64,000 nucleotides of DNA from Lactobacillus sp. MRS-253-APC-2B. Lineage in GTDB: Bacteria; Bacillota; Bacilli; Lactobacillales; Lactobacillaceae. The DNA is taken from the NCBI RefSeq assembly GCF_012843675.1, contig NZ_JABAFO010000001.1, positions 1-64,000 of the forward strand, given 5' to 3'. Under the pieces are notes generated by a model. It worked only from the letters and a program-made list of their open reading frames with translations. It had not been told where the DNA came from and ran no database searches. Numbering within the stretch: position 1 is the first letter of the stretch; the number at the start of each line of letters is the position of its first letter. The position numbers and the translations under genes were made by a program. Shown piece after piece: positions 3,991-54,017 of the stretch.

Positions 3991-5190
3991 CTACTTGCTG
4001 GCCTTTTTAAGTCGTTCGATATCATGAACGATCATTAATTCTTCGTTGGTAGGAATAAGCAGCGTCTTGATCTTGGCGTCATCAGTTGACAGATCACGTT
4101 CAACGCCACGTACGTTATTCTTTTCAGGATCAATTGCAATCCCAAAGTAGCCAAGCTTGTCAGCTACGGCTTGACGAACGGTAATACTATTTTCACCAAC
4201 ACCCGCCGTAAAGACGATTGCATCAGCACCGCCAAGTTCGGCAATGTAGGCGCCAATGTAGCGAACGATCCGGTTGACATAAATATCCCATGCCAGCTGT
4301 GCACGCTCGTTACCTTCATTTTTAGCCTGCTCAACGTCACGCATATCGCTGGAGACACCAGAGATTCCCAGCAGACCTGACTTGTGGTTCAGCATATCAA
4401 CCATTTCATCACTGGAAACGCCCAGCTTCTTTTGAACAAAGGCGACCAACGATGGGTCAACATCCCCAGAACGAGTAGCCATCGTAACCCCAGCTAATGG
4501 TGAAAAGCCCATTGACGTATCAAATGACTTACCGCCTTTAATGGCAGTAATTGAGGCCCCGGCACCAATGTGGCAAGTGATCAGCTTCAGATCTTCCAGC
4601 GGCCGACCCAGCATTTCGGCAGCCCGTGCCGCTACGTAGCGGTGGCTGGTACCATGAGCACCATATTTGCGGGCACCATACTTCTCGTACCATTCGTAAG
4701 GAACACTGTAAAGGGCGTTCATCTTTGGCATGTTGGCATGGAAAGCAGTATCAAAAACGGCAACTGCAAATGCATCCGGCAAAACTTCCTTAAATGCCTT
4801 AATTCCTTGTAATTCAGCAGGATCATGCAGTGGTGCATATTCTGCCAGAGCATCGATCTTGTTCATAACGTCTTCATCGATGACTACTGAGTCCTTAAAG
4901 TACTCACCACCGGCAACGATCCGGTGACCAACAGCCGTAATCTCATCGTAGCTGGCAACGATGTTCAAGTCCAGCAGCTGCTTGAGCAGATATTGAACTG
5001 CGGCTTCATGGTCGGCAAATGGCTTGTCTTCCTTTAGCTTTTGACCATCGCCATACTTGATTTCGGCATGACCGACTTCCAGACCGATTCGTTCAATCTG
5101 ACCTTCTGCTACTACTTCTTCGCTTGGCATGTCAAACAGCTTGAACTTAACGGTCGAACTGCCGGCATTAACAGCAATCGTTTTTGACAT
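3991..5190 (-). CDS. ackA: Acetate kinase
   Basis: Acetate kinase, 399 residues, the usual length. It converts acetyl phosphate plus ADP to acetate and ATP in the cytoplasm, the final ATP-yielding step of the heterolactic acetate branch. The N-terminal phosphate-binding NAGSSTVKFKLF (residues 8-19), the VFDTAFHANMP active-site segment near 145, and the GAHGTSH and FTAGVGEN motifs are present. It follows ytxK by 27 bp, as in Bacillus, at the distal end of the com pilus operon, and ends in a terminator. RBS AAGGAGAG precedes the ATG. Confidence 0.97.
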   Translation of the reverse strand: MSKTIAVNAGSSTVKFKLFDMPSEEVVAEGQIERIGLEVGHAEIKYGDGQKLKEDKPFADHEAAVQYLLKQLLDLNIVASYDEITAVGHRIVAGGEYFKDSVVIDEDVMNKIDALAEYAPLHDPAELQGIKAFKEVLPDAFAVAVFDTAFHANMPKMNALYSVPYEWYEKYGARKYGAHGTSHRYVAARAAEMLGRPLEDLKLITCHIGAGASITAIKGGKSFDTSMGFSPLAGVTMATRSGDVDPSLVAFVQKKLGVSSDEMVDMLNHKSGLLGISGVSSDMRDVEQAKNEGNERAQLAWDIYVNRIVRYIGAYIAELGGADAIVFTAGVGENSITVRQAVADKLGYFGIAIDPEKNNVRGVERDLSTDDAKIKTLLIPTNEELMIVHDIERLKKASK

Positions 5191-5217: not shown

Positions 5218-6225
5218 TCAACTTTTAAGATTTGCAGCTACCCATGCATCAATCTGATTCATAAAGGCTACAAACTCAGCACGCTTCTTGACTGACGGAA
5301 AACTTCCCAACAAAACCTGTTTGGCTTGCTGACTGCCACCACCCTGACGCTGCAAAAGAAGAATTGATTTTTGAGCAGCCTGATTTTTGAAAAGCTCGGC
5401 TGGCAGATTAATCAATCCTTGGAAATGCGCTACGGAATGAATCCATTTGACAAAGCCCATCGTTTCTTCGGTCTGGAAAAGATTTGAAGGAACCAAAAAT
5501 ACACCAAAGCCACCCGGTTTTAGATAGTTCATCGATTGTTCGATCAACAGGTGATGAACGTATGAATGACCTTTTTGGGCGCGGGTTTGATAATTTTTGG
5601 TATTTTCATCAAGTGGATAGTATCCAACCGGCAAATCCGAGACGGCCAAATCACTTTGCGGAATATCCAAAGCCTCAATGGCATCCTGATGGAACAGCTC
5701 AACCGGCTCTCTTTGCAATGATACGCTGACACTGGCAACAGCCAGCAGCTCATCATCGTTGTCGATTCCATATCCTTGTATTGGCTGATCAATCGCCTCG
5801 CGCAGATGGTTCATTACCGTCGTCAACAGGTTGGCCGTTCCTACAGCCGGATCAAAAATCGTATATGGATGACTGCGATCAATGATTTTTTCAATCAGAT
5901 AGGCCATCATAATGCCCAGTGTATCGGGCGTCATTTGGTGATTGGCCTGAATTGCATCCTTACGAATTACTTTTAACAGATCCAGCTGTAAAAGACGACG
6001 GACGGTTTCACGATCGGTATGCAACAGATCCAGCTGCTGATAAAGCTTGTTTAACTCAGCAACTGTCTCTGGTTTGGGCAAACCATCCTCAATGCGAACC
6101 TTGCCATTGTCAACCAGATTCTCAGCATTTTCAAGAAAAGCATCAAGATAAGAGCTGTTCAGATCTGCCTGCAATAGTTCCGTTGCGCGATCAAATGGTA
6201 CAAATAGTTGTTCTGGTGTTGCCAG
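5218..6225 (-). CDS. ytxK: Class I SAM-dependent methyltransferase, YtxK-like
   Basis: A methyltransferase of the YtxK group (N6-DNA-methylase-like fold). The SAM-binding segment FDPAVGTANLLTTV and the catalytic-type motif AVSDLPVGYYP (standing for the [N/D]PPY motif) are visible, followed by a basic C-terminal region. Homologues begin about 17 residues before the first ATG/GTG/TTG candidate (TTG at 6174). The reading frame extends to a CTG at 6225, giving the family-like LATPEQLFVPFDRATELLQ, with GGGAG 9 nt upstream of the CTG; I choose this start. Its place between comGG and ackA is the classical one. Role unknown. Confidence 0.8.
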   Translation of the reverse strand: MATPEQLFVPFDRATELLQADLNSSYLDAFLENAENLVDNGKVRIEDGLPKPETVAELNKLYQQLDLLHTDRETVRRLLQLDLLKVIRKDAIQANHQMTPDTLGIMMAYLIEKIIDRSHPYTIFDPAVGTANLLTTVMNHLREAIDQPIQGYGIDNDDELLAVASVSVSLQREPVELFHQDAIEALDIPQSDLAVSDLPVGYYPLDENTKNYQTRAQKGHSYVHHLLIEQSMNYLKPGGFGVFLVPSNLFQTEETMGFVKWIHSVAHFQGLINLPAELFKNQAAQKSILLLQRQGGGSQQAKQVLLGSFPSVKKRAEFVAFMNQIDAWVAANLKS

Positions 6226-6287: not shown

Positions 6288-6596
6288 TCAAGGAAGCGCC
6301 CTCTCTTCTTGAAACTTAAAGGATGAGCCATCATTTAGAAAAACGATTGTTGATTGACCTTGATGACTGACCGTCCCTAGATTAAAGCGAAAACTGCCAT
6401 GTCTACCCGCCAGATCTGCCATTGTCTGTGCAAGGAAGCGATCACTTAAACGATGAATGAGTTTTTCTTGACTGGCTTGGTAACGATACTGTGTCAGAAT
6501 TGTCGCAGCTGTAAGTCCCATTACGATCATCGCTGCTAAAAGCGTGCTGCTCTGGTGACGGTGCCAGACTGATAATCGCCGTTTGCCGTCGATCAT
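6288..6596 (-). CDS. comGG: Competence pilus protein ComGG-like
   Basis: A 102-residue protein with one hydrophobic segment (about residues 17-36) after a basic, Arg-rich start. It lacks the FTLxE prepilin motif, as is usual for ComGG. Identification is positional: last small gene of the com operon. The start is supported by GGAGGTG 10 nt before the ATG. It overlaps comGF by 155 bp in another frame. Confidence 0.65.
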   Translation of the reverse strand: MIDGKRRLSVWHRHQSSTLLAAMIVMGLTAATILTQYRYQASQEKLIHRLSDRFLAQTMADLAGRHGSFRFNLGTVSHQGQSTIVFLNDGSSFKFQEERALP

Positions 6597-6981
6597 TGCT
6601 TCTTTTCACCTCCATCTTTAATCGCCGCTTGCTGAGCTGACTAAAATTTGCTTCCTTAATCTGATAAAGCATCGGTAAATAGCCACCACCATGCTGCAGC
6701 CTCAAATAGATGCGATCATTTTCAGCTACCAGCTCATAATATTTGTCGGTCGCTGCGCCATATAAAACCACATGTTGACGATCCTGGCAGTGACAAAGAG
6801 CAAATTGACGATCTGATGACTCCAGTTCAGTCACGAACAGATACCAGTCAGTCGGCATATCCAATGAGCGCTGATCAATTTTCTCCGTAGTTTTAACTAT
6901 CTGACCCAAGACAATGATTGCAAACATGCTGATCAGCAGCGCCATTAAACTCTCAGCCAGTGTAAATGCAGCTTTTTTCAA
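6442..6981 (-). CDS. comGF: Minor pseudopilin ComGF
   Basis: Minor pseudopilin: MKKAAFTLAESLMALLISMFAIIV gives a prepilin-type N-terminus (cleavage expected after Ala-4, then FTLAES and a 20-residue hydrophobic helix). At 179 residues it is about 35 longer than typical ComGF. The extra C-terminal part, rich in Ser and Asp, is exactly the region that overlaps comGG out of frame, so the tail may be a by-product of a lost stop codon. Confidence 0.75.
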   Translation of the reverse strand: MKKAAFTLAESLMALLISMFAIIVLGQIVKTTEKIDQRSLDMPTDWYLFVTELESSDRQFALCHCQDRQHVVLYGAATDKYYELVAENDRIYLRLQHGGGYLPMLYQIKEANFSQLSKRRLKMEVKRSNDRRQTAIISLAPSPEQHAFSSDDRNGTYSCDNSDTVSLPSQSRKTHSSFK

Positions 6982-6985
6982 AACA

Positions 6986-7288
6986 TCACCGTCTTTCCAG
7001 TTTTAGAATACATCTTCCAGCTTGCTCAACTACAACCTGATCTTGATCTGCAGTTGCCGTCATTGATGCTTGCACGATGCTAACGCGATGCTTTTGCTCT
7101 TTAAATTCATCACCAGCTTCTTTTGCCAATCGACAGGCCATTAGACGCACATCCGCCTGCTTTTGCTGCTGATTCAGTCCATTCAGGCCGATCATTAAAA
7201 ATACCGCGCTGATAGCTGCAATTGCCAAAGCCATCATGCTTTCACCTAGTATGATTGCCGGTTGGCCCTTTTTGAATTGCCTGAACAT
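6986..7288 (-). CDS. comGE: Minor pseudopilin ComGE-like
   Basis: A 100-residue protein with a short basic leader and a hydrophobic helix (GESMMALAIAAISAVFLMIGL, about residues 14-34) typical of minor competence pseudopilins. The conserved Glu at +5 of prepilins is present in the GES context. The start ATG (7288) is chosen because GGGGGAG lies 5 nt upstream. It overlaps the comGD end by 47 bp, implying coupled translation. Confidence 0.65.
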   Translation of the reverse strand: MFRQFKKGQPAIILGESMMALAIAAISAVFLMIGLNGLNQQQKQADVRLMACRLAKEAGDEFKEQKHRVSIVQASMTATADQDQVVVEQAGRCILKLERR

Positions 7289-7694
7289 GATAGCTCCCCC
7301 ATGCCAATTGAATCCGCATCTGATAATCCGTACCATCTAAAGTTGAAATAAATTCTTCTGTCTGCGGACTTACATAACCGGTCTTTTTCATTTCAATATC
7401 ATTAAAGCGTTTGACAAATAGTGTTTCAGGAACCCTGATCTGTTCTGAGTCATTTGGCCAGCTAAAGACGATCAGATTGCGATGCCTTAAATAGACAACC
7501 CGGGTTGATTCTTGGCTGGTCTTAGATCGAACCTGAGCTGCCTGCCAAGCTTGGCGAAAGATTTGCCAAAACTGCCGCTCTGCATTTTTCTGAACTGCTC
7601 GATGCATTGATGGCCAGCTAATCAATAGCGTCAACGCAACGATTCCTAAGACAATTAGCATTTCAAGCAAGGTAAAGGCCTGCTGGCGTCTCAT
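7242..7694 (-). CDS. comGD: Minor pseudopilin ComGD
   Basis: A 150-residue prepilin-like protein beginning MRRQQAFTLLEMLIVLGIV: basic leader, Ala at -1, FTLLE motif, then a hydrophobic helix. Its ATG overlaps the comGC stop (ATGA). It would be processed by a ComC/PilD-type prepilin peptidase, not encoded in this window. Confidence 0.85.
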   Translation of the reverse strand: MRRQQAFTLLEMLIVLGIVALTLLISWPSMHRAVQKNAERQFWQIFRQAWQAAQVRSKTSQESTRVVYLRHRNLIVFSWPNDSEQIRVPETLFVKRFNDIEMKKTGYVSPQTEEFISTLDGTDYQMRIQLAWGSYHVQAIQKGPTGNHTR

Positions 7695-7999
7695 TTCCGC
7701 TCAGCCCTTCCGTTAACAACCTTGATGTGCTCACTAGTTGCTTTTTGAGCCTGTGCCGCAGTTAGATACTGATTTTCAACCAACTGATCAATACTTTGAG
7801 CTCTTTGACCGGTATCATTTTCATAAAGATCCAGCTGAGTCTGAACGACATTGGTCATTGCATTTTCGTGAATCTTGGTCGCATGTTCACGTTGCGTACT
7901 GAGATTTGGCAAAACAATCAATACCAACAGACTGATGATAAACAAAACGATTGCCATTTCCAGCAATGTAAACGCACGCCGGCGGGTTTTATTCAGCAT
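7691..7999 (-). CDS. comGC: Major competence pseudopilin ComGC
   Basis: Major pseudopilin of the DNA-uptake transformation pilus, 102 residues. N-terminus RRRAFTLLEMAIVLFIISLL shows the class III signal (cleavage after Ala, then FTLLE) and the assembly helix. The RBS AGGAGGTG is strong. It starts one base after the comGB stop. Confidence 0.92.
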   Translation of the reverse strand: MLNKTRRRAFTLLEMAIVLFIISLLVLIVLPNLSTQREHATKIHENAMTNVVQTQLDLYENDTGQRAQSIDQLVENQYLTAAQAQKATSEHIKVVNGRAERK

Positions 8000-8000
8000 T

Positions 8001-9074
8001 TCAATACACCTCCTGCAATGAATAATAAATCGGCAGTAAAATGCTTAGATACATCGAAACAATCCCAGCCGCAATCAGAATAAACAACACAGGCTGTACC
8101 AGTACTAAAATATGCATTGTTGACTGCCGGAATTTTTTAAACCTAAGCCGCGAAAAAATCGTCAGCTCCTGCCCCAATTGCTCATTGGACAAGCCTCGAT
8201 TAATAAAGATTGCCAGTTCATCAGACAAAAAAGGCATGCTTAAGATAAAATCAGTGAGCTGCTTGCCTTGCGAGCCAAGCTCATATGCCATCTGACCAAC
8301 CTGATGCAGCAATGAGTCATCGTCAAAACGGCTGGTCAACTGACAGATCTCATGCAGCGAAAAACCATGCTTTAACAAAATAGCCAGATTCGACGTTAGA
8401 TAATAGTCATAGTAGTCGCGAAAAATCTTGCCAAACAGCGGCCAACGACACTGACGACGAACCTTTTTTAAAGTCGTCATATGTCGCCAGTGCCTAATCC
8501 CCAACAGTCCATAGATTAAAAAAGTGCTGCCAACAACTATGAGTGTTTCACCAAGCGGCCATTGTGCTGAGCTATTCAATTGATTTTCTTGCTGCCAGCT
8601 TCTAAGCTCCGGGAAGACAAAAATCAATAGTGCTCCCAAAATCATCCCCAGCATCAGCAGCAAAATCAATGGGTACTCCAGCAATGACTTCAGTTGACGT
8701 CGCTGCTGAGCCTGAACTTGTAAAAACTGTCCAATCTCTTTTAGCGTAACGGACAGGCTGCCGTGTTGCTCAGCCAATAACAGCTGATAATAAAGCTCGA
8801 TTTTTACATAGGGTTTCAGCGCATCAGCCAGTAAACGACCAGACTGAAGCTGTCGATCAATGCCGGAAAAGAAGCTTGCTTGCTTAGGATAGGCACGCTG
8901 TGAAAATTGAACAGCGTGCTGCAATGAAAAACCAACTGTCAATAGATCATGCATCAATAAAAACCAATCAGCCTGCTGAGCCGTTTTAAAATTAGCCGGC
9001 TTGGTACGATTGGGCCACGCTTTTTTCCAGCCAGCCCTTGGCCACGCAATTTTTGAGCTGCTGATTCCAATCAT
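8001..9074 (-). CDS. comGB: Competence type II secretion membrane protein ComGB
   Basis: A 357-residue GspF/PilC-type inner membrane platform protein for the competence pilus. Two repeated GspF domains are visible, the first starting near ADWFLLMHDLLTVGFSLQHAV, with membrane segments near residues 130-155, 180-200 and 325-350. The ATG at 9074 lies 83 bp inside comGA; no later start fits. The family-like part begins near residue 30, so the first residues may be lineage-specific. Confidence 0.9.
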   Translation of the reverse strand: MIGISSSKIAWPRAGWKKAWPNRTKPANFKTAQQADWFLLMHDLLTVGFSLQHAVQFSQRAYPKQASFFSGIDRQLQSGRLLADALKPYVKIELYYQLLLAEQHGSLSVTLKEIGQFLQVQAQQRRQLKSLLEYPLILLLMLGMILGALLIFVFPELRSWQQENQLNSSAQWPLGETLIVVGSTFLIYGLLGIRHWRHMTTLKKVRRQCRWPLFGKIFRDYYDYYLTSNLAILLKHGFSLHEICQLTSRFDDDSLLHQVGQMAYELGSQGKQLTDFILSMPFLSDELAIFINRGLSNEQLGQELTIFSRLRFKKFRQSTMHILVLVQPVLFILIAAGIVSMYLSILLPIYYSLQEVY

Positions 9075-9966
9075 CGGTCATCCCCGTCCTTTGCTTTACA
9101 AAACTTTCCTGCAGTTCATCATCAATCAACAAATCAAACAGTACTGCCAGATGTTTTTGCACCGTTGGTAAAAGGCGCTGGTAAAAAATCCCGCTGATGG
9201 CCTGCTGCAGATAAGACTCGTCAACATTCAACTGTCTTAGGCGAGCCAATGCTCCATAAACGCTGCGAGCATGAACGGTTGCCATAACCAGATGTCCGCT
9301 CAAGGCAGCTTGAATCGCCATTTGAGCCGTCTGTGGATCACGAATCTCACCAATAATAAAAATCTGCGGACGGTGTCTTAAGCCAACCTTGAGTAATTCT
9401 TGATAGCTCATTGCCGCCAATTCATTAACCTGCAGCTGAACAAATAGCGGCTCGGTAATTTCGACCGGATCCTCAATCGTCATCACAATGCACTGTTTGA
9501 CAAACTGCCGTGCCAAATGATACATCGTCGTTGTCTTTCCTGATCCCATCGGTCCGGCAAACAGCATCAGACCACGCTTTTTGGCAGTCTGCTGCAATTT
9601 TTGCCATTGGGGCGGCACCAGCATCCGGTAGTCATTGCATAAACGATAGATAAACCGAACCACCAACGATTCCTGACCACGACAGTCCCCAACCGTCGAC
9701 AGCCTCAAGTCAACCTTTCCGGCTGGTGCATGCCAGCAAAGCGATCCTGACTGAGGTCGGCGGTGCTCACTAACTGACATATCAGCCCGATACTTTAAAT
9801 AGGCAATCAAACGCTGACCCTGTGGCCGTGGCCATTGCTGATAAAGCTGCAACTGTCCTTCGTGCATGATCAGCAGTCGATAGTAGCTGCGATATGGTAG
9901 AACATAGAGGTCTGAAACTCGGTAGCGAATCAAAACTGCAATATCTCGTGAGAATTCACTTTTCAA
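8992..9966 (-). CDS. comGA: Competence pilus assembly ATPase ComGA
   Basis: A 324-residue GspE/PilB-type secretion ATPase that powers assembly of the competence pilus at the cytoplasmic face. Walker A GPMGSGKTT is at 138-146, the Asp-box/Walker B region FIIGEIRDPQTAQMAIQAALSGH near 205-225 and the His box MATVHA follow. The start is TTG with AAGGGGGG upstream. It is the first gene of comGA-GB-GC-GD-GE-GF-GG. The promoter region carries AAAAAAT-N17-GCATATAG, shared with radC and similar to that of cinA. Coding sequence is intact, so transformation ability is plausible if the regulator is present. Confidence 0.95.
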   Translation of the reverse strand: MKSEFSRDIAVLIRYRVSDLYVLPYRSYYRLLIMHEGQLQLYQQWPRPQGQRLIAYLKYRADMSVSEHRRPQSGSLCWHAPAGKVDLRLSTVGDCRGQESLVVRFIYRLCNDYRMLVPPQWQKLQQTAKKRGLMLFAGPMGSGKTTTMYHLARQFVKQCIVMTIEDPVEITEPLFVQLQVNELAAMSYQELLKVGLRHRPQIFIIGEIRDPQTAQMAIQAALSGHLVMATVHARSVYGALARLRQLNVDESYLQQAISGIFYQRLLPTVQKHLAVLFDLLIDDELQESFVKQRTGMTDDWNQQLKNCVAKGWLEKSVAQSYQAG

Positions 9967-9987
9967 GACTATCCCCCCTTATCATTG

Positions 9988-10019
9988 CTATATGCCAAAA
10001 ATAAAACATTGCATTTTTT
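9988..10019 (-). promoter_or_regulatory. Candidate competence promoter of comG operon
   Basis: Minus strand AAAAAAT (10013-10019), exactly 17 bases, GCATATAG (9988-9995), then 21 bases to the TTG start with the RBS inside. The same two words and spacing occur before radC and, slightly varied, before cinA. Suggested as a competence sigma factor site; no housekeeping -35 is seen here. Confidence 0.6.
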
Positions 10020-20761: not shown

Positions 20762-20891
20762 CTTAATGGCTCCCTTCACTAATTGATGATCCTATGTTAA
20801 CAGAAGTAGATTCATTCGTCACTTATTATGCTTACTTTTTATAAGCTTTCAAATAATAATTAGCCAAAATAATTTTAACTCAATCATCTGA

Positions 20892-23270
20892 CTACTGCAG
20901 GTAGACAATCGTTGCCCCATCCCCACCTGCATTAGGCGCAGCATAGGCAAACGACTTAACGCGTGGATTACTGCGCAGATACTCCCAGGTACCCTTGCGC
21001 AATGCCCCGGTGCCCTTGCCATGAATTACCGTAACCGGCGAAAGATTATTGAGTAAGGCATGATCGATAAACTGAGCCAATTCGCTCATTGCCTGTTCGT
21101 AGCGATGACCACGCAGATCCAGCCGTGCCGAGGTATGCCGGGTCTGAACGGTCCGTACCGGTCGGCGCTTTGGCTCTCGTTCCTTTTCGGATTTGACAAG
21201 CTGCTGTTTGGAGATCTTCTCTAAGTCATTTTCATCAATTTCCATCCGTAAGATTCCCAATTGTACTTCCCATTTGTGATTGCCGCGTTTTTCCAAAAGC
21301 TCGCCTTTTTGTCCGTATGACTTGACCAAAACGGCATCGCCCTTATGCAGATCATGCTTTTGCTTGGCCTTTTTCAAAACCGAGTTGTGCTTTAAGCGCG
21401 GATTTTGATGCAGTGCATTTAAGGCGCCTTGTGCATCAATCAGCTCGTTTTCCTTGACGTTGGCACCTTGCGTAATCTCCAGCTGTCGTAAATGATGAAT
21501 GATCTTGTCAGCTTTCTTTTTAGCCTGTGAAACCTGATGATTGGCTTTGGATCGTGCATCCTCATAAAGCTTGTCACGCTGTTCTTCAAAACGAGTCAGC
21601 TTGCCGTTGAGTTCTTGTTCGATAACCTTATTTTTCTCCAGCAGTTTTTCAAGCTCCTCGCTGCGTTCACGAGCCTGCTTGCGCTGTTCAACCAAGTCAC
21701 CAATCATCTTATTGAGATCCTGACTGTCATCACTGACCAGTGACTTGGCCTCAATGATAACATCCTCACCGATTCCCAGCCGTTTAGCAATCGCAATCCC
21801 ATTTGACTGACCAGGAATGCCCAGCAATAAACGATAAGTCGGTCTAAGCGTTGTCTGATCAAACTCCATGCTGGCATTGATGGTTGCTGGCCGCTCATAG
21901 GCAAAGGCTTTTAGTTCTGGGTAGTGTGTCGTAACGACCACGTCACTGTCTAATGCAGCAAGCTTGTCTAAAATCGCCATTGCTAGGGCCGCTCCTTCTT
22001 TAGGATCGGTACCGGCACCCAGCTCGTCAAGTAGGACCAGACTGCGAGCCGTCGCCCGATCCAAGATTGCCTTGACGTTTTCCATATGACCAGAAAACGT
22101 ACTCAGGTTCTGTTCCAATGACTGTTCATCACCAATATCGGCAAAGACCTCATCATAAATGGCGATCATGCTGCCCTCAGCGGCGGGAACAAACATCCCT
22201 GACTGTCCCATCAGCTGAATCAATCCCAATGTCTTTAAGGTAATCGTCTTACCACCGGTGTTAGGACCGGTAATCACGATAGTATGGTAGCCTTGGCCCA
22301 GCTTGATATCGTTGGCAACTGCCTTTTTAGGATCAATCAATGGATGACGCGCGTACTTGAGATTCACAACCCCATCTTGACTGAGCTGTGGCAGCGTTGC
22401 CTTGGTATCGTGCGCCAGCTTGGCCTTGGCATTAACAAAGTCCAGATGTCCCAAAATCTTGGCATTGTTTTGAATGTCCAATCGATAAGGCGCCAGCATT
22501 GTTGAAAGTGCGGCTAATACTCGTCGTACTTCTTGGCGTTCTTCAATCTGTGACTGCCGCAAGCGGTTGTTGAGATCAACCGTGCTGGCCGGCTCGATGT
22601 ACAGCGTCTGACCACTGGCACTTTGGTCATGGACCACGCCCCCAAAACGGCTGCGCTCACGACTCAATACCGGCAGAACGTAGCGCTCATTGCGCACTGT
22701 GATGATTGGCTCACTAAGATATTTGGCCATTTTGCCATGCGTATATTTTTCCATCTGCTGACGAATCTCGGCCTCTGTTTTGGCAATCAGCTGGCGAATT
22801 CCATGCAGCTTGGTGGAGGCTTCATCCAATACGGCCCCGGTGTCTTGATCAATTGACTGTAGGAGACGCTTGGTGATCGAAGGGATCGTTACCAGCTCAT
22901 CGACTTCGTTAGGCAGAACCTGCAGCGTTATTTTTTCGGCATGCAGCCTTTCAAAGAAGTGCTGTACGCTCATGCTGGCTCGCAAAACCTTGGCAATCTG
23001 CGCCAGCTCAGCTCCATTCAAACTGGCTTTGATTTTCAAGCGTTTCATCTGAGGCCGAACGTCAGCCAGCTTAGGAATCGGCATACCGCCCTTTAAGCGT
23101 AGAATATCAGCCCCATCCGTTGTTTCCTGCTGCCAAGAGCGGACCGTTTCATAATCAGACTGTGGCATCAGCTCAGCCAGTTCCTTTTTGCCATCCGCTG
23201 ATACCAGATATTTTGTCAATTGATCTTTAATCCGCTGAAATTCCAGCGTTTCCAGAATCTTTTCGTTCAT
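20892..23270 (-). CDS. mutS2: Endonuclease MutS2
   Basis: MutS2 of 792 residues: MutS-type core ATPase (Walker A ITGPNTGGKTITLKTLGL near 330, signature DIGDEQSLEQNLSTFSGHM, Walker B LVLLDELGAGTDP), a long coiled-coil arm (about 510-600) and a C-terminal Smr nuclease domain (LDLRGHRYEQA, VIHGKGTGALRKG). In Gram-positives it senses collided ribosomes (RqcU) and/or limits recombination. It lies downstream of the CvpA gene. Confidence 0.96.
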   Translation of the reverse strand: MNEKILETLEFQRIKDQLTKYLVSADGKKELAELMPQSDYETVRSWQQETTDGADILRLKGGMPIPKLADVRPQMKRLKIKASLNGAELAQIAKVLRASMSVQHFFERLHAEKITLQVLPNEVDELVTIPSITKRLLQSIDQDTGAVLDEASTKLHGIRQLIAKTEAEIRQQMEKYTHGKMAKYLSEPIITVRNERYVLPVLSRERSRFGGVVHDQSASGQTLYIEPASTVDLNNRLRQSQIEERQEVRRVLAALSTMLAPYRLDIQNNAKILGHLDFVNAKAKLAHDTKATLPQLSQDGVVNLKYARHPLIDPKKAVANDIKLGQGYHTIVITGPNTGGKTITLKTLGLIQLMGQSGMFVPAAEGSMIAIYDEVFADIGDEQSLEQNLSTFSGHMENVKAILDRATARSLVLLDELGAGTDPKEGAALAMAILDKLAALDSDVVVTTHYPELKAFAYERPATINASMEFDQTTLRPTYRLLLGIPGQSNGIAIAKRLGIGEDVIIEAKSLVSDDSQDLNKMIGDLVEQRKQARERSEELEKLLEKNKVIEQELNGKLTRFEEQRDKLYEDARSKANHQVSQAKKKADKIIHHLRQLEITQGANVKENELIDAQGALNALHQNPRLKHNSVLKKAKQKHDLHKGDAVLVKSYGQKGELLEKRGNHKWEVQLGILRMEIDENDLEKISKQQLVKSEKEREPKRRPVRTVQTRHTSARLDLRGHRYEQAMSELAQFIDHALLNNLSPVTVIHGKGTGALRKGTWEYLRSNPRVKSFAYAAPNAGGDGATIVYLQ

Positions 23271-41032: not shown

Positions 41033-42127
41033 TTATTTTTCTTTGGTTTCAGTTGCCATGTCCAGGCTTTCTTGCTGTGGTTTCTTGTCCTTGGCAGTGT
41101 CTTTTTCGCTGTTGGCAGCTGCCGTTAATGAAGCATCCGGTTCCATGCCATAGGCCACTCGAACCTTATTGGTCAGCTCAGCCATCGCTTCTGGATGTTC
41201 TTCAAACCACTTTTTGGCGTTCTCACGACCTTGACCAATTCGCTCATTGCCGTAGGAATACCATGCGCCACTCTTTTTAACCAGATCTTTTTCAACGGCC
41301 ATATCCAAAACCTCACCCGTCTTAGAGATTCCCTGACCGTACATGATGTCGACCTCAGCCTTTCTAAATGGCGGTGCAACCTTATTTTTGACGACCTTAA
41401 TCTTGGCACGGTTACCGATTACCTCGGTTCCATCTTTTAGCTGCTCGCCACGCCGAATCTCCATTCGAATCGTGGAGTAGAATTTAAGGGCGCGGCCACC
41501 CGGCGTCGTTTCTGGATTCCCAAACATCACACCGACTTTTTCACGAATCTGATTGATAAAGATGGCAATCGTCTTGGTCTTATTAATCTCACCAGAAAGC
41601 TTCCGCAAAGCCTGCGACATCAGACGTGCCTGCAGACCAACGTGAGTATCACCCATCTCACCTTCAATTTCGGCTCGTGGAACCAGTGCGGCTACTGAGT
41701 CGACAATAACGATGTCGACCGCCCCACTGGCAATCAAGGCATCCGCAATCTCCAGTCCCTCTTCACCGGTATCGGGCTGAGAGAGCAACAGATCCTTGAC
41801 ATTAACCCCCAATGCCTGAGCATATTGAGGATCCAATGCGTTTTCGGCATCAATGTAGGCTGCCGTACCGCCGCGTTTTTGCACTTCAGCAACGGCATGC
41901 AGCGCTACCGTCGTCTTACCAGAACTTTCTGGACCATACATTTCAATGATTCGGCCACGTGGATAGCCGCCTACCCCCAATGCCTCGTCAATTGCCAATG
42001 AGCCACTGGAGACCGTTGCAATCTTGGTGTCGGCAGCATCGCCCATTCGCATGATGGAACCCTTACCGAAGTTTTTTTCGATCTTGCGCAGTGCATTTTC
42101 CAGCGCTGCCTGTCGTTGATCAGCCAA
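41033..42127 (-). CDS. recA: Recombinase RecA
   Basis: RecA, 364 residues, catalysing strand exchange and LexA/phage repressor cleavage. Walker [13 protein letters not shown] (about 67-78), Walker [13 protein letters not shown], and L2 loop region [22 protein letters not shown] are present; acidic/Lys-rich C-tail. TTG start with GGAGG upstream. It lies 80 bp downstream of cinA, with a LexA-type box between. Confidence 0.98.
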
Positions 42128-42203: not shown

Positions 42204-42215
42204 GAACATTAGTTC
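42204..42215 (-). promoter_or_regulatory. Putative LexA (DinR) box for recA
   Basis: GAAC-N4-GTTC (minus strand CGAACTAATGTTCA) overlapping the cinA stop codon, about 77 bp before recA. It matches the Gram-positive SOS box core; position relative to a recA promoter (-10-like TAAGAT near 42168) is plausible. Confidence 0.6.
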
Positions 42216-43474
42216 GTTTTATTTTGCAGTGCCCAGTAGACGTACAATAATCCCATTTGAACACTGCGCTGCCGAATCCATTGGCGCGTTGCCATTTTCG
42301 GTGACAGATGCAGCAGCCTGGTCTGAGTTGGCTGACCTTTGATTGCAATCCCGATCCAAACCGTCCCTGCCGGCTGGTTTTCCAAAGCATCGGGACCCGC
42401 AACACCGGTAAATGAGACCCCGACTTTCGCATTCATCTTTTGTTGACAGCCTTCAGCCATTGCCTTAGCGGTTTGAGCACTGACAACACCATACCGATCA
42501 ATAATGTTTGGAGAAACGCCCAGCAGCTGTTCCTTAGCCTGAGCAGCATAGGTTACAAAACCACCATTAAAGACTTTCGAGGCGCCTGGTACGCTGCAGA
42601 TCGTGCTCTGGAACATGCCACCCGTTAAGCTTTCGGCACTGGTGATCGTCCAGTGATGCTCCTGGAGTAATTTGACAACCTGTGCAGCCAGCGTGACATG
42701 CTCGCCAATCCCAAAACAGTATTGGCCAAGTTGTTTAAAAATTGCCTGTTCAGCGGCCGTTAGTCGCAAAAGTGCCTGATCTTCAGTGACATCATGAATC
42801 GTCAGTCGTACCTGAATCTCACCGGGTTGAACGTATGAGGTTGCTAAGACGCCATCAATCCTGGCATCGACCAATATCTGATTAATCTCATCCATCAAAA
42901 GCGATTCTGGTTGGCCCAAAAAATGCAGATTGTGGCTGTAAATAGCCCGCCCGCTGCCAAATTGCTGCTTTAAAAGCGGTATGAGACTTTGCGTGACCAT
43001 TGGCTTGAATTCACGTGGTGGTCCTGGCAAAACGACATAGGTGTGATCTTGATGATTCAAATAGGCCCCAATTGCCATGCCGGTTGGATTGGATAACGGT
43101 TGGCCCCCTTTTAGATAGTAGGCCATTTTAATATTTTCTGGCGTCATTTGCGTCTGTCGGGCTGTAAAATCAGCTTGAATTTTTTGCCACTGATCATCAT
43201 CTAAAGCTAATTCAACACCAATTGCCTTTGCCGTACTGGCCATGGTCTGATCATCAGGCGTTGGTCCCAGACCGCCGCAGACAAAGATCAGCTGAGCCCG
43301 CTTTTGTGCCTGTCTGATGGCTGCTTGAATGCGCTTGGGATCATCATCAGTCGTCGTCTGCCAATATGCATTTATATCGAGCCGTCGCAATTGATCAGCC
43401 AAAAAGCGGGCATTGGTATTGACAATCTGCCCCAAGATAATTTCGGTTCCGATTGAGATAATTTCTGCTTCCAT
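42209..43474 (-). CDS. cinA: Competence/damage-inducible protein CinA
   Basis: A 421-residue CinA: N-terminal MoCF-like COG1058 domain (EIISIGTEIILGQIVNTNARFLA, CGGLGPTPDDQT) and C-terminal NMN amidohydrolase-like domain (TSAESLTGGMFQSTICSVPGASKVFNGGFVTYA). CinA is induced with recA in competent streptococci. Its promoter carries TTTAAAT-N17-GCATATAT, close to the comGA and radC sites. RBS GAGGGGGA. Confidence 0.95.
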   Translation of the reverse strand: MEAEIISIGTEIILGQIVNTNARFLADQLRRLDINAYWQTTTDDDPKRIQAAIRQAQKRAQLIFVCGGLGPTPDDQTMASTAKAIGVELALDDDQWQKIQADFTARQTQMTPENIKMAYYLKGGQPLSNPTGMAIGAYLNHQDHTYVVLPGPPREFKPMVTQSLIPLLKQQFGSGRAIYSHNLHFLGQPESLLMDEINQILVDARIDGVLATSYVQPGEIQVRLTIHDVTEDQALLRLTAAEQAIFKQLGQYCFGIGEHVTLAAQVVKLLQEHHWTITSAESLTGGMFQSTICSVPGASKVFNGGFVTYAAQAKEQLLGVSPNIIDRYGVVSAQTAKAMAEGCQQKMNAKVGVSFTGVAGPDALENQPAGTVWIGIAIKGQPTQTRLLHLSPKMATRQWIRQRSVQMGLLYVYWALQNKTN

Positions 43475-43494: not shown

Positions 43495-43526
43495 ATATAT
43501 GCCGATTATCGGCTAATGCATTTAAA
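43495..43526 (-). promoter_or_regulatory. Candidate competence promoter of cinA(-recA)
   Basis: Minus strand TTTAAAT (43520-43526), 17 bases, GCATATAT (43495-43502), 20 bases to the ATG. Same geometry as the comGA and radC sites. The spacer contains the palindrome GCCGATAATCGGC. Confidence 0.55.
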
Positions 43527-53328: not shown

Positions 53329-53967
53329 TCAATTCGCAATTTGACCATTAAATGTCGCATGACTTTCCTGACCTTCACGCCAGCTGTAGTAGTCTTGACT
53401 GCCAATCACCAGACAGTCCAATAAATGCAGTCCCAAAAGCTGGCAGCCCTGCTCCAATCGACTCATAAAGCTCAAATCCTGTCTGGATGGCGCAGGATCA
53501 CCTGAAGGATGATTGTGTGCCATGATCAGGCCAAATGAGTTCCAGTGAAGCGCATAGCGAAAAATCTGATCAGGATAGAGCATGCATTCGGCTTGCCCTC
53601 CCTTAAACAAACAGTGCCGAGCAATAATTTCGTTATGCACGTCCGTACAGAGAATCTCAACTGATTCTTGTGTCTGACCAGCCATCTCGTCCATTAAAAA
53701 CTGACCAACTTCATTGCTGGAATAGGCATGCCCTAAAATCTCGTGCGGACAGGTTAGAATCAAACTGCCCAGCTCAATAGCCGCCAGAACCGGTTTGAGT
53801 CGTTTCCGATCATAGCCTAAAAAGGCATCCTGCTCTTCCATAGTCATGCAGCGAAAAACTGCCGGCGTTGGAAACAGTTCTAAAAAATGATTGGCCAGAT
53901 CCTCTTCCTTGCTAAATACCATGTTGACCAGTGTGACATAACGCTGCTGACAAGTTTTTTCGACCAT
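53329..53967 (-). CDS. radC: RadC family protein (JAB/MPN domain)
   Basis: A 212-residue RadC-type protein: N-terminal helical region without a clear HhH, and a JAB metalloprotease-like domain with AHNHPSGDPAPSRQD (zinc ligands His-x-His, Asp). RadC is a late competence gene in streptococci; biochemical role uncertain. Preceded by AAAAAAT-N17-GCATATAG and RBS GGGGAGG. Confidence 0.9.
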   Translation of the reverse strand: MVEKTCQQRYVTLVNMVFSKEEDLANHFLELFPTPAVFRCMTMEEQDAFLGYDRKRLKPVLAAIELGSLILTCPHEILGHAYSSNEVGQFLMDEMAGQTQESVEILCTDVHNEIIARHCLFKGGQAECMLYPDQIFRYALHWNSFGLIMAHNHPSGDPAPSRQDLSFMSRLEQGCQLLGLHLLDCLVIGSQDYYSWREGQESHATFNGQIAN

Positions 53968-53984: not shown

Positions 53985-54017
53985 CAATACTATATGCAGA
54001 CTAGAGCAGATAGTATT
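53985..54017 (-). other. Hairpin overlapping radC promoter region
   Basis: AATACTAT and ATAGTATT (53985-54017) form an 8-bp stem around the candidate competence -10. No T tract follows, so a folC terminator is less likely than a regulatory palindrome. Confidence 0.4.

Follow-up and report, generated by a model that had tools for sequence, protein, structure and literature searches.

Two short words stand at a fixed distance ahead of comGA, and the question is whether they belong to a promoter shared by the competence genes of this genome and, if they do, which sigma factor reads it. On the minus strand of the window (the whole 64-kb stretch of DNA that was analysed) the sequence from 10019 to 9988 reads, as an earlier note on this DNA had described it, AAAAAAT, exactly 17 bases and GCATATAG, with 21 more bases separating the second word from comGA, whose TTG start is at 9966. 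Its two further copies were recovered as well: radC carries the same two words at the same spacing (54021-53990, N17), and cinA has TTTAAAT-N17-GCATATAT (43526-43495). The names of comGA, radC and cinA are backed by Pfam (T2SSE, RadC and CinA, respectively). The exact two-word pattern had three matches in the window versus none in 100 shuffles; GCATATA alone is not rare, with seven occurrences in the window, three of them at these promoters (Table 1). The core SigX regulon of streptococci, in the accessible part of its description (PMC5069739), comprises comFA, comEA, coiA, dprA, radC, ssbB, comGA-GH, ack, cinA and recA, and comGA, radC and cinA, which the earlier note had named as ComX-induced in streptococci, are all on this list.

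Table 1. Predicted promoter elements and genes at the three boxed loci of the window
Feature	Position	Strand	Remarks
comGA -10 box GCATATAG	9988..9995	-	
comGA -35-like element AAAAAATGCA	10010..10019	-	AATGCA at 10015-10010
Shine-Dalgarno stretch AAGGGGGGAT before comGA	9971..9980	-	sequence reading
comGA, type II/IV secretion ATPase	8992..9966	-	TTG start
comGB-like (T2SSF)	8001..9074	-	
Remaining comG row	6442..7999	-	N_methyl pseudopilin-like frames 7691-7999 and 7242-7694; ComGF 6442-6981
N6 methyltransferase-like gene after comG	5218..6174	-	
Acetate kinase after comG	3991..5190	-	
cinA -10 box GCATATAT	43495..43502	-	
cinA -35-like element AATGCA	43517..43522	-	
cinA	42209..43474	-	
recA	41033..42127	-	downstream of cinA
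radC -10 box GCATATAG	53990..53997	-	
radC -35-like element AATACT	54012..54017	-	weak
radC	53329..53967	-	

The box across the competence genes

Over the whole genome under study (G000; 1,979,598 bases in 54 contigs) the exact pattern had four matches (comGA, cinA, radC and a site upstream of rpsF-ssb) versus none for the reversed-pattern controls, so that the outcome feared for such a scan, many random matches and none at other com genes, was not seen. As a search pattern, the proposed WWWAAAT-N17-GCATATAK stood up in these four exact matches and fell short elsewhere, since it misses dprA, comEA, comFA, coiA, comC and ypbB-recQ. With these, ten units of G000 carry the box, six of which (comGA, cinA, radC, rpsF-ssb, comC and ypbB-recQ) were first found through the box itself. 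The other four (dprA, comEA, comFA and coiA) were located by family search, independently of the box, and have it in both G000 and L. mucosae (8 of 8). The box is exact at dprA, rpsF-ssb and comC (a prepilin peptidase by Pfam), and differs by one change at comEA (GCATAAAG), coiA (ACATATAG) and comFA (GCATAGAG) of G000, as it likewise does at comEA and comFA of L. mucosae. All six genes that the earlier note had put forward as a test (comEA, comFA, dprA, ssb, coiA and comC) are thus boxed in G000, three of them (comEA, comFA and coiA) with one change. The streptococcal core genes radA and dut are among those outside this look-up.

The ypbB-recQ unit consists of an open frame with an HTH_40 domain and a DEAD helicase read as RecQ, which we take to be ypbB and recQ. 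Its box (C12:173051-173071 in G000) is found in both genomes, and recQ does not figure in the streptococcal core list as given in the accessible part of PMC5069739. At comFA (C1:222500-225500 in G000) the match with the L. mucosae protein falls into two pieces, residues 1-372 in one frame and residues 356-449 in another; the gene is therefore frameshifted in the G000 assembly, through mutation or sequencing error.

Comparison with L. mucosae DSM 13345 (G018), the sole relative returned by a scan of genome contigs (89% identity in the comGA protein), gave the box at all nine loci examined there; comC, examined in G000 only, lies outside that set, and ypbB-recQ, radC and cinA were examined in G000 and G018 only. 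A pattern combining the box with a Shine-Dalgarno sequence, GCATATAN{6,20}GGRGG, had six distinct sites (seven rows) and no controls in G000, all preceding competence or recombination genes (comGA, cinA, radC, dprA, comC and ypbB-recQ), and six sites (coiA, ypbB-recQ, radC, cinA, comGA and dprA) with two controls in L. mucosae. The distance from box to start codon is 20-27 bp in nine of the ten G000 units and about 175-180 bp at rpsF-ssb. A loosened pattern (AAAT-N17-GCATATA with up to two mismatches) was rejected as mostly noise (595 matches versus 484 controls); at its 26 one-mismatch places, nine of which were read as sequence and 17 judged by open-frame position alone, comC was the sole recognised competence gene.

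Shape of the putative promoter

Nineteen sites at ten loci, aligned on the box, share the arrangement TTWRATGCA, a 14-15 bp spacer with a T-rich end, and GCATATAGYAW. The spacer measures 14 bp, and 15 in coiA of both genomes and comFA of G000. CATA is invariant over the 19 sites, the first G is present in 18 and the last G in 17. None of them has TACGAATA, in keeping with the claim that the site is not the cin-box. The upstream word needed revision: an element does exist upstream, and it is better described as TTWRATGCA at 14-15 bp before the box than as WWWAAAT at 17.

The upstream block (-24 to -15) of the ten G000 sites holds 7.34 bits in its fixed register, compared with 3.13 (sd 0.68) under random register shifts, none of 5000 of which scored as high; RRTGY stands at -20 or -21 in seven of the ten. 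A hold-out matrix of the box only (-3 to +10), trained solely on sites outside the window, placed comGA first, radC second and cinA third of 127,974 window positions (first, second and fourth with a heavier pseudocount). The full-length matrix (-26 to +10), also trained outside the window, ranked comGA and cinA 1 and 2 and radC 19 or 21; the upstream element of radC is weak, and adding the upstream half lowers its rank.

A different box in other Limosilactobacillus genomes

Nine further Limosilactobacillus genomes (G001-G009) were compared with G000 and L. mucosae (hereafter the mucosae pair). The exact comGA-type pattern had no match in any of the nine, which carry a CGTNYTTA-type box at the same place before the same genes. 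Over 51 upstream regions, read from six loci in these relatives, the mucosae-type regular expression matched none, versus 12 of 12 regions of the mucosae pair (the source of the expression, hence not independent); conversely, CGT[ACT][CTA][TCA]T matched 42 of the 51 (one off target) and none of the 12. Most of the relatives' regions that it missed have near versions starting with CGT. Left unused were dprA of G007, where a stretch of just 35 residues matched (on C203), and comEA of the two genomes G003 and G007, in which nothing scored above the cut-off. In G006, dprA matches in two pieces about 48 kb apart (C44:68815-69237 and 20846-21052).

A visual alignment on CGT, sorted by clade, comprised fifty of the relatives' sites (coiA of G007 was counted in the 51-region test and left out of the aligned set). 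Their majority upstream words are tttcgTG in G001 and G002, AATg in G003, G004 and G006, and TTtCGT.Ac in G008 and G009, and are weak in G005 and G007. Thus it is mainly the -10 element that changed in the mucosae group, the upstream half differing from clade to clade. As a putative promoter element, the new box is, among the genomes examined, that of L. mucosae and its close relative, and differs from the box of nine others of the genus.

A wider survey covered 396 genomes of the family with GCATATAN{6,20}GGRGG. At least one match was present in 277 of them, so one or two matches mean nothing. Among 22 genomes of the genus (table read by eye), G317 had seven matches (2 controls) and G262 three (0 controls), and from these counts alone the new box may extend, entirely or partly, to both; the match counts of G212 are exactly those of L. 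mucosae, to which species it probably belongs. Seven genomes of other genera (G184, G189, G271, G316, G344, G347 and G409) had five or six matches and, again by counts alone, may carry the box.

The ComX/SigH sigma factor

In all five loci read, those of G000 and L. mucosae included, rpmG- and nusG-like genes follow a gene of the SigH/ComX type (the neighbours were named by reading their translations). The other flank of this gene encodes a transporter-like protein of 412 aa in the mucosae pair and a protein of about 250 aa, presumably rlmB-like, in the three other loci. The two ComX proteins of the mucosae pair are 83% identical, with dN 0.099 and dS 1.49 (a simple Nei-Gojobori count in which dS is near saturation), and comX is under purifying selection between them. 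ComX of G000 aligns with that of the relatives over regions 2 and 4 at 25-34% identity, and its domain scores are 15.6 bits for PF04542 (cut-off 24), 13 for PF08281 (25.7) and 41.5 for NCBIfam sigma70-ECF (42.9); neither for this protein nor for ComX of G001 did any NCBIfam equivalog attain its cut-off score.

The alignment of ComX comprised 10 of the 11 genomes (G004, with an open frame of 129 aa, was left out), and the comparison proteins outside the mucosae pair all come from one genus. Scaled to the divergence of ComGA, region 2 of the mucosae ComX falls 16.1 points below the similarity expected (the spread of the other 28 pairs being 7.5), a figure whose 16 comparisons share one branch and thus count as one event; region 4 falls 2.3 points below (spread 6.3). 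Region 2 has 24 columns without variation in the four other clades, and the mucosae pair departs from them at 7 (Q62, E63, A64, V67, Q89, D97 and L98 in G000 numbering), while the same test applied to each other clade gave 0/17, 1/18, 0/17 and 0/17. For region 4, with few columns, the pair changes 1 of 6 versus 0/5, 1/6, 1/6 and 3/8 in the other clades.

The mucosae pair lacks the core-binding Gln-Glu of region 2.2 and has SNM and ANM where all eight other aligned ComX proteins have QEA; RpoD keeps this Gln-Glu as well, and ComX Q62-E63 align with it in a profile alignment that includes the RpoD sequences of ten genomes. Changed residue 89 (Gln to Arg) aligns, in the same profile alignment, with the Gln of WWIRQAI in RpoD, which we take to be Q437 of sigma70. 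The substitutions Q437H and T440I of sigma70 suppress a T:A to C:G change at -12, a position at which the two residues face the major groove, according to the accessible part of PMC2613000. Hence one of the changed residues would, by alignment, occupy a position that affects -10 specificity in sigma70.

L. mucosae, G009, G008, G004 and G005 encode a second protein resembling sigma factors, about 200 aa long; in G000 it was not found when searched at E up to 1.

The rpsF-ssb candidate promoter

The fourth exact match (C23:7462-7493 in G000) lies ahead of rpsF, the gene preceding ssb. Downstream of gyrA a hairpin is predicted in all 11 genomes, and the rpsF-ssb box, of either type, falls between its two arms (fold z-score -3.16 in G000). 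The predicted folding energy of the full stretch ranges from -15.7 to -32.6 kcal/mol, the box being spanned by 12 to 20 pairs; for the part contained in a transcript started at the box it is -2.3 to -9.8 kcal/mol. Such a transcript would lack the 5' arm and so escape the terminator; the folding thus suggests that rpsF-ssb transcripts made in competence may evade termination.

A proposed regulon-wide change of promoter and sigma factor

We reason that the sites are, with high probability, late-competence promoters read by ComX/SigH, and that their -10 element changed throughout the regulon together with a matching change in the sigma factor. That ComX itself binds them we hold to be very likely from the sequence comparisons; that the changes in region 2 cause the new specificity is probable, at a somewhat lower level of confidence. 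The direction of change would have been from the CGTNYTTA type to GCATATAG in the mucosae lineage. The earlier reading, an undescribed ComX/SigH-like site in this lineage, is supported as far as the site is concerned, and has to be amended for the sigma factor, which belongs to a known family: because its gene is a SigH/ComX ortholog by synteny, the novelty resides in the site and in the corresponding alteration of the protein.

In the mechanism that we propose, the SigH/ComX-type sigma factor whose gene stands immediately ahead of rpmG and nusG would direct RNA polymerase to promoters composed of TTWRATGCA, a 14-15 bp spacer with a T-rich end, GCATATAGYAW and a short leader with a strong Shine-Dalgarno sequence. 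Once ComX is made, comG, comE, comF, comC, dprA, coiA, cinA-recA, radC, ypbB-recQ and rpsF-ssb would be transcribed, and the boxed units would thereby be induced during competence. The transcripts would carry a short leader, mostly Shine-Dalgarno, if transcription starts, as we assume, at the position known from other promoters. In the L. mucosae lineage the -10 element would have switched and ComX region 2 changed along with it, while the upstream half stayed more similar. The fullest version of the proposal has in our judgement even chances: at least ten promoters would have swapped their -10 element with a remodelled ComX region 2 (the Gln-Glu given up) and become orthogonal to those of the sister species, with the rpsF-ssb promoter placed within the terminator hairpin of gyrA, which a transcript started from that promoter would be unable to form.

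The box and region 2 of ComX may instead have changed separately, region 2 serving core binding or stability and its match with the -10 element being coincidental. Four of the seven changed residues (Q62, E63, A64 and V67) align with region 2.2 of RpoD, its core-binding part, outside the helix that reads the -10 element, and one branch alone carries both changes; against this, the changed columns include the position aligned with Q437 of sigma70, and the box changed on the very branch on which region 4 and the upstream promoter half changed less. We consider such a coincidence unlikely. Much less probable still is that the boxes are relics of a ComX that has lost its function. Weak or lost function is conceivable for a protein that lacks the Gln-Glu and scores below the Pfam cut-offs, and the frameshifted comFA of the G000 assembly would fit it, yet dN of comX is far below dS between the two genomes and the box has been kept at the nine loci common to the pair.

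Three further readings move the box away from ComX. It could be the operator of an activator that is no sigma factor; however, it has two elements at a near-fixed, promoter-length spacing, lies 20-27 bp before the start in nine of the ten G000 units and occupies the same place as the box of the relatives, and we give this reading very little weight. The likeness of TGGCATATAG to a TGN followed by an AT-rich hexamer would fit promoters of the housekeeping type whose -10 is extended (TGG preceding CATATA), but the sites are without a TATAAT-like word and have an invariant C where the housekeeping consensus has T, and in G000 neither the exact pattern nor the box with Shine-Dalgarno is found away from genes of competence and recombination, which leaves this explanation barely credible. 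It is equally hard to credit that the second sigma-like protein, rather than the comX beside rpmG, reads the box: L. mucosae has one, but none was found in G000, which has the boxes, and G004, G005, G008 and G009 have one yet carry the other box.

Several observations weigh against the ComX reading itself: six of the ten units were discovered through the box, the upstream element of radC is weak, comEA and comFA of both genomes and coiA of G000 have boxes with one change, comFA is frameshifted in G000, the rpsF-ssb box is far from its start codon, ssb and recA respond little to SigH in L. sakei, and the mucosae ComX has low sigma-domain scores and no Gln-Glu. Reading by ComX with a jointly changed -10 element is the account that we retain. 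Where a sigma factor serves many promoters, change should be difficult, because each of them has to change as well. Here both states occur in one genus, at the same genes and similar distances, with protein changes mainly in the half that would read the -10 element, so that the order of events and the residues responsible are testable. The box is in addition a marker of the competence regulon in one group of gut lactobacilli.

Comparison with known systems

No description of a ComX/SigH box in lactobacilli was found among the titles and abstracts retrieved from open-licence literature, nor a paper in that literature combining GCATATAG with competence. None of the words 'motif', 'consensus', 'cin-box' or 'binding site' appears in the accessible main text on the L. 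sakei SigH regulon (PMC3364868), and the accessible part of a paper on S. aureus SigH (PMC3486894) yielded no motif.

One close counterpart is the CGTNYTTA box of the relatives, which precedes the same genes at a similar distance from the start and is likewise accompanied by a T-rich stretch and a short upstream word; it differs in the -10 element, and the ComX proteins of these genomes keep QEA, Q and DL in region 2. The streptococcal ComX/SigX promoters resemble those described here in serving the same core genes through one short conserved box near the start and an alternative sigma factor (accessible parts of PMC5069739 and PMC5167698). Their cin-box or com-box is, however, TACGAATA or YTACGAAYW in those sources, whereas the lineage studied here has GCATATAG together with a recognisable upstream TTWRATGCA.

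The SigH regulon of L. sakei shares the same kind of sigma-gene locus (PMC3364868). There, SigH overexpression induces comG, comE, comF, comC and dprA, leaves ssb almost unaffected and affects recA little. The L. sakei list has a methyltransferase and ack2 beside comG, and the window likewise has a methyltransferase and an acetate kinase after comG; the two systems part at ssb, which is hardly induced in L. sakei, while rpsF-ssb is boxed in G000.
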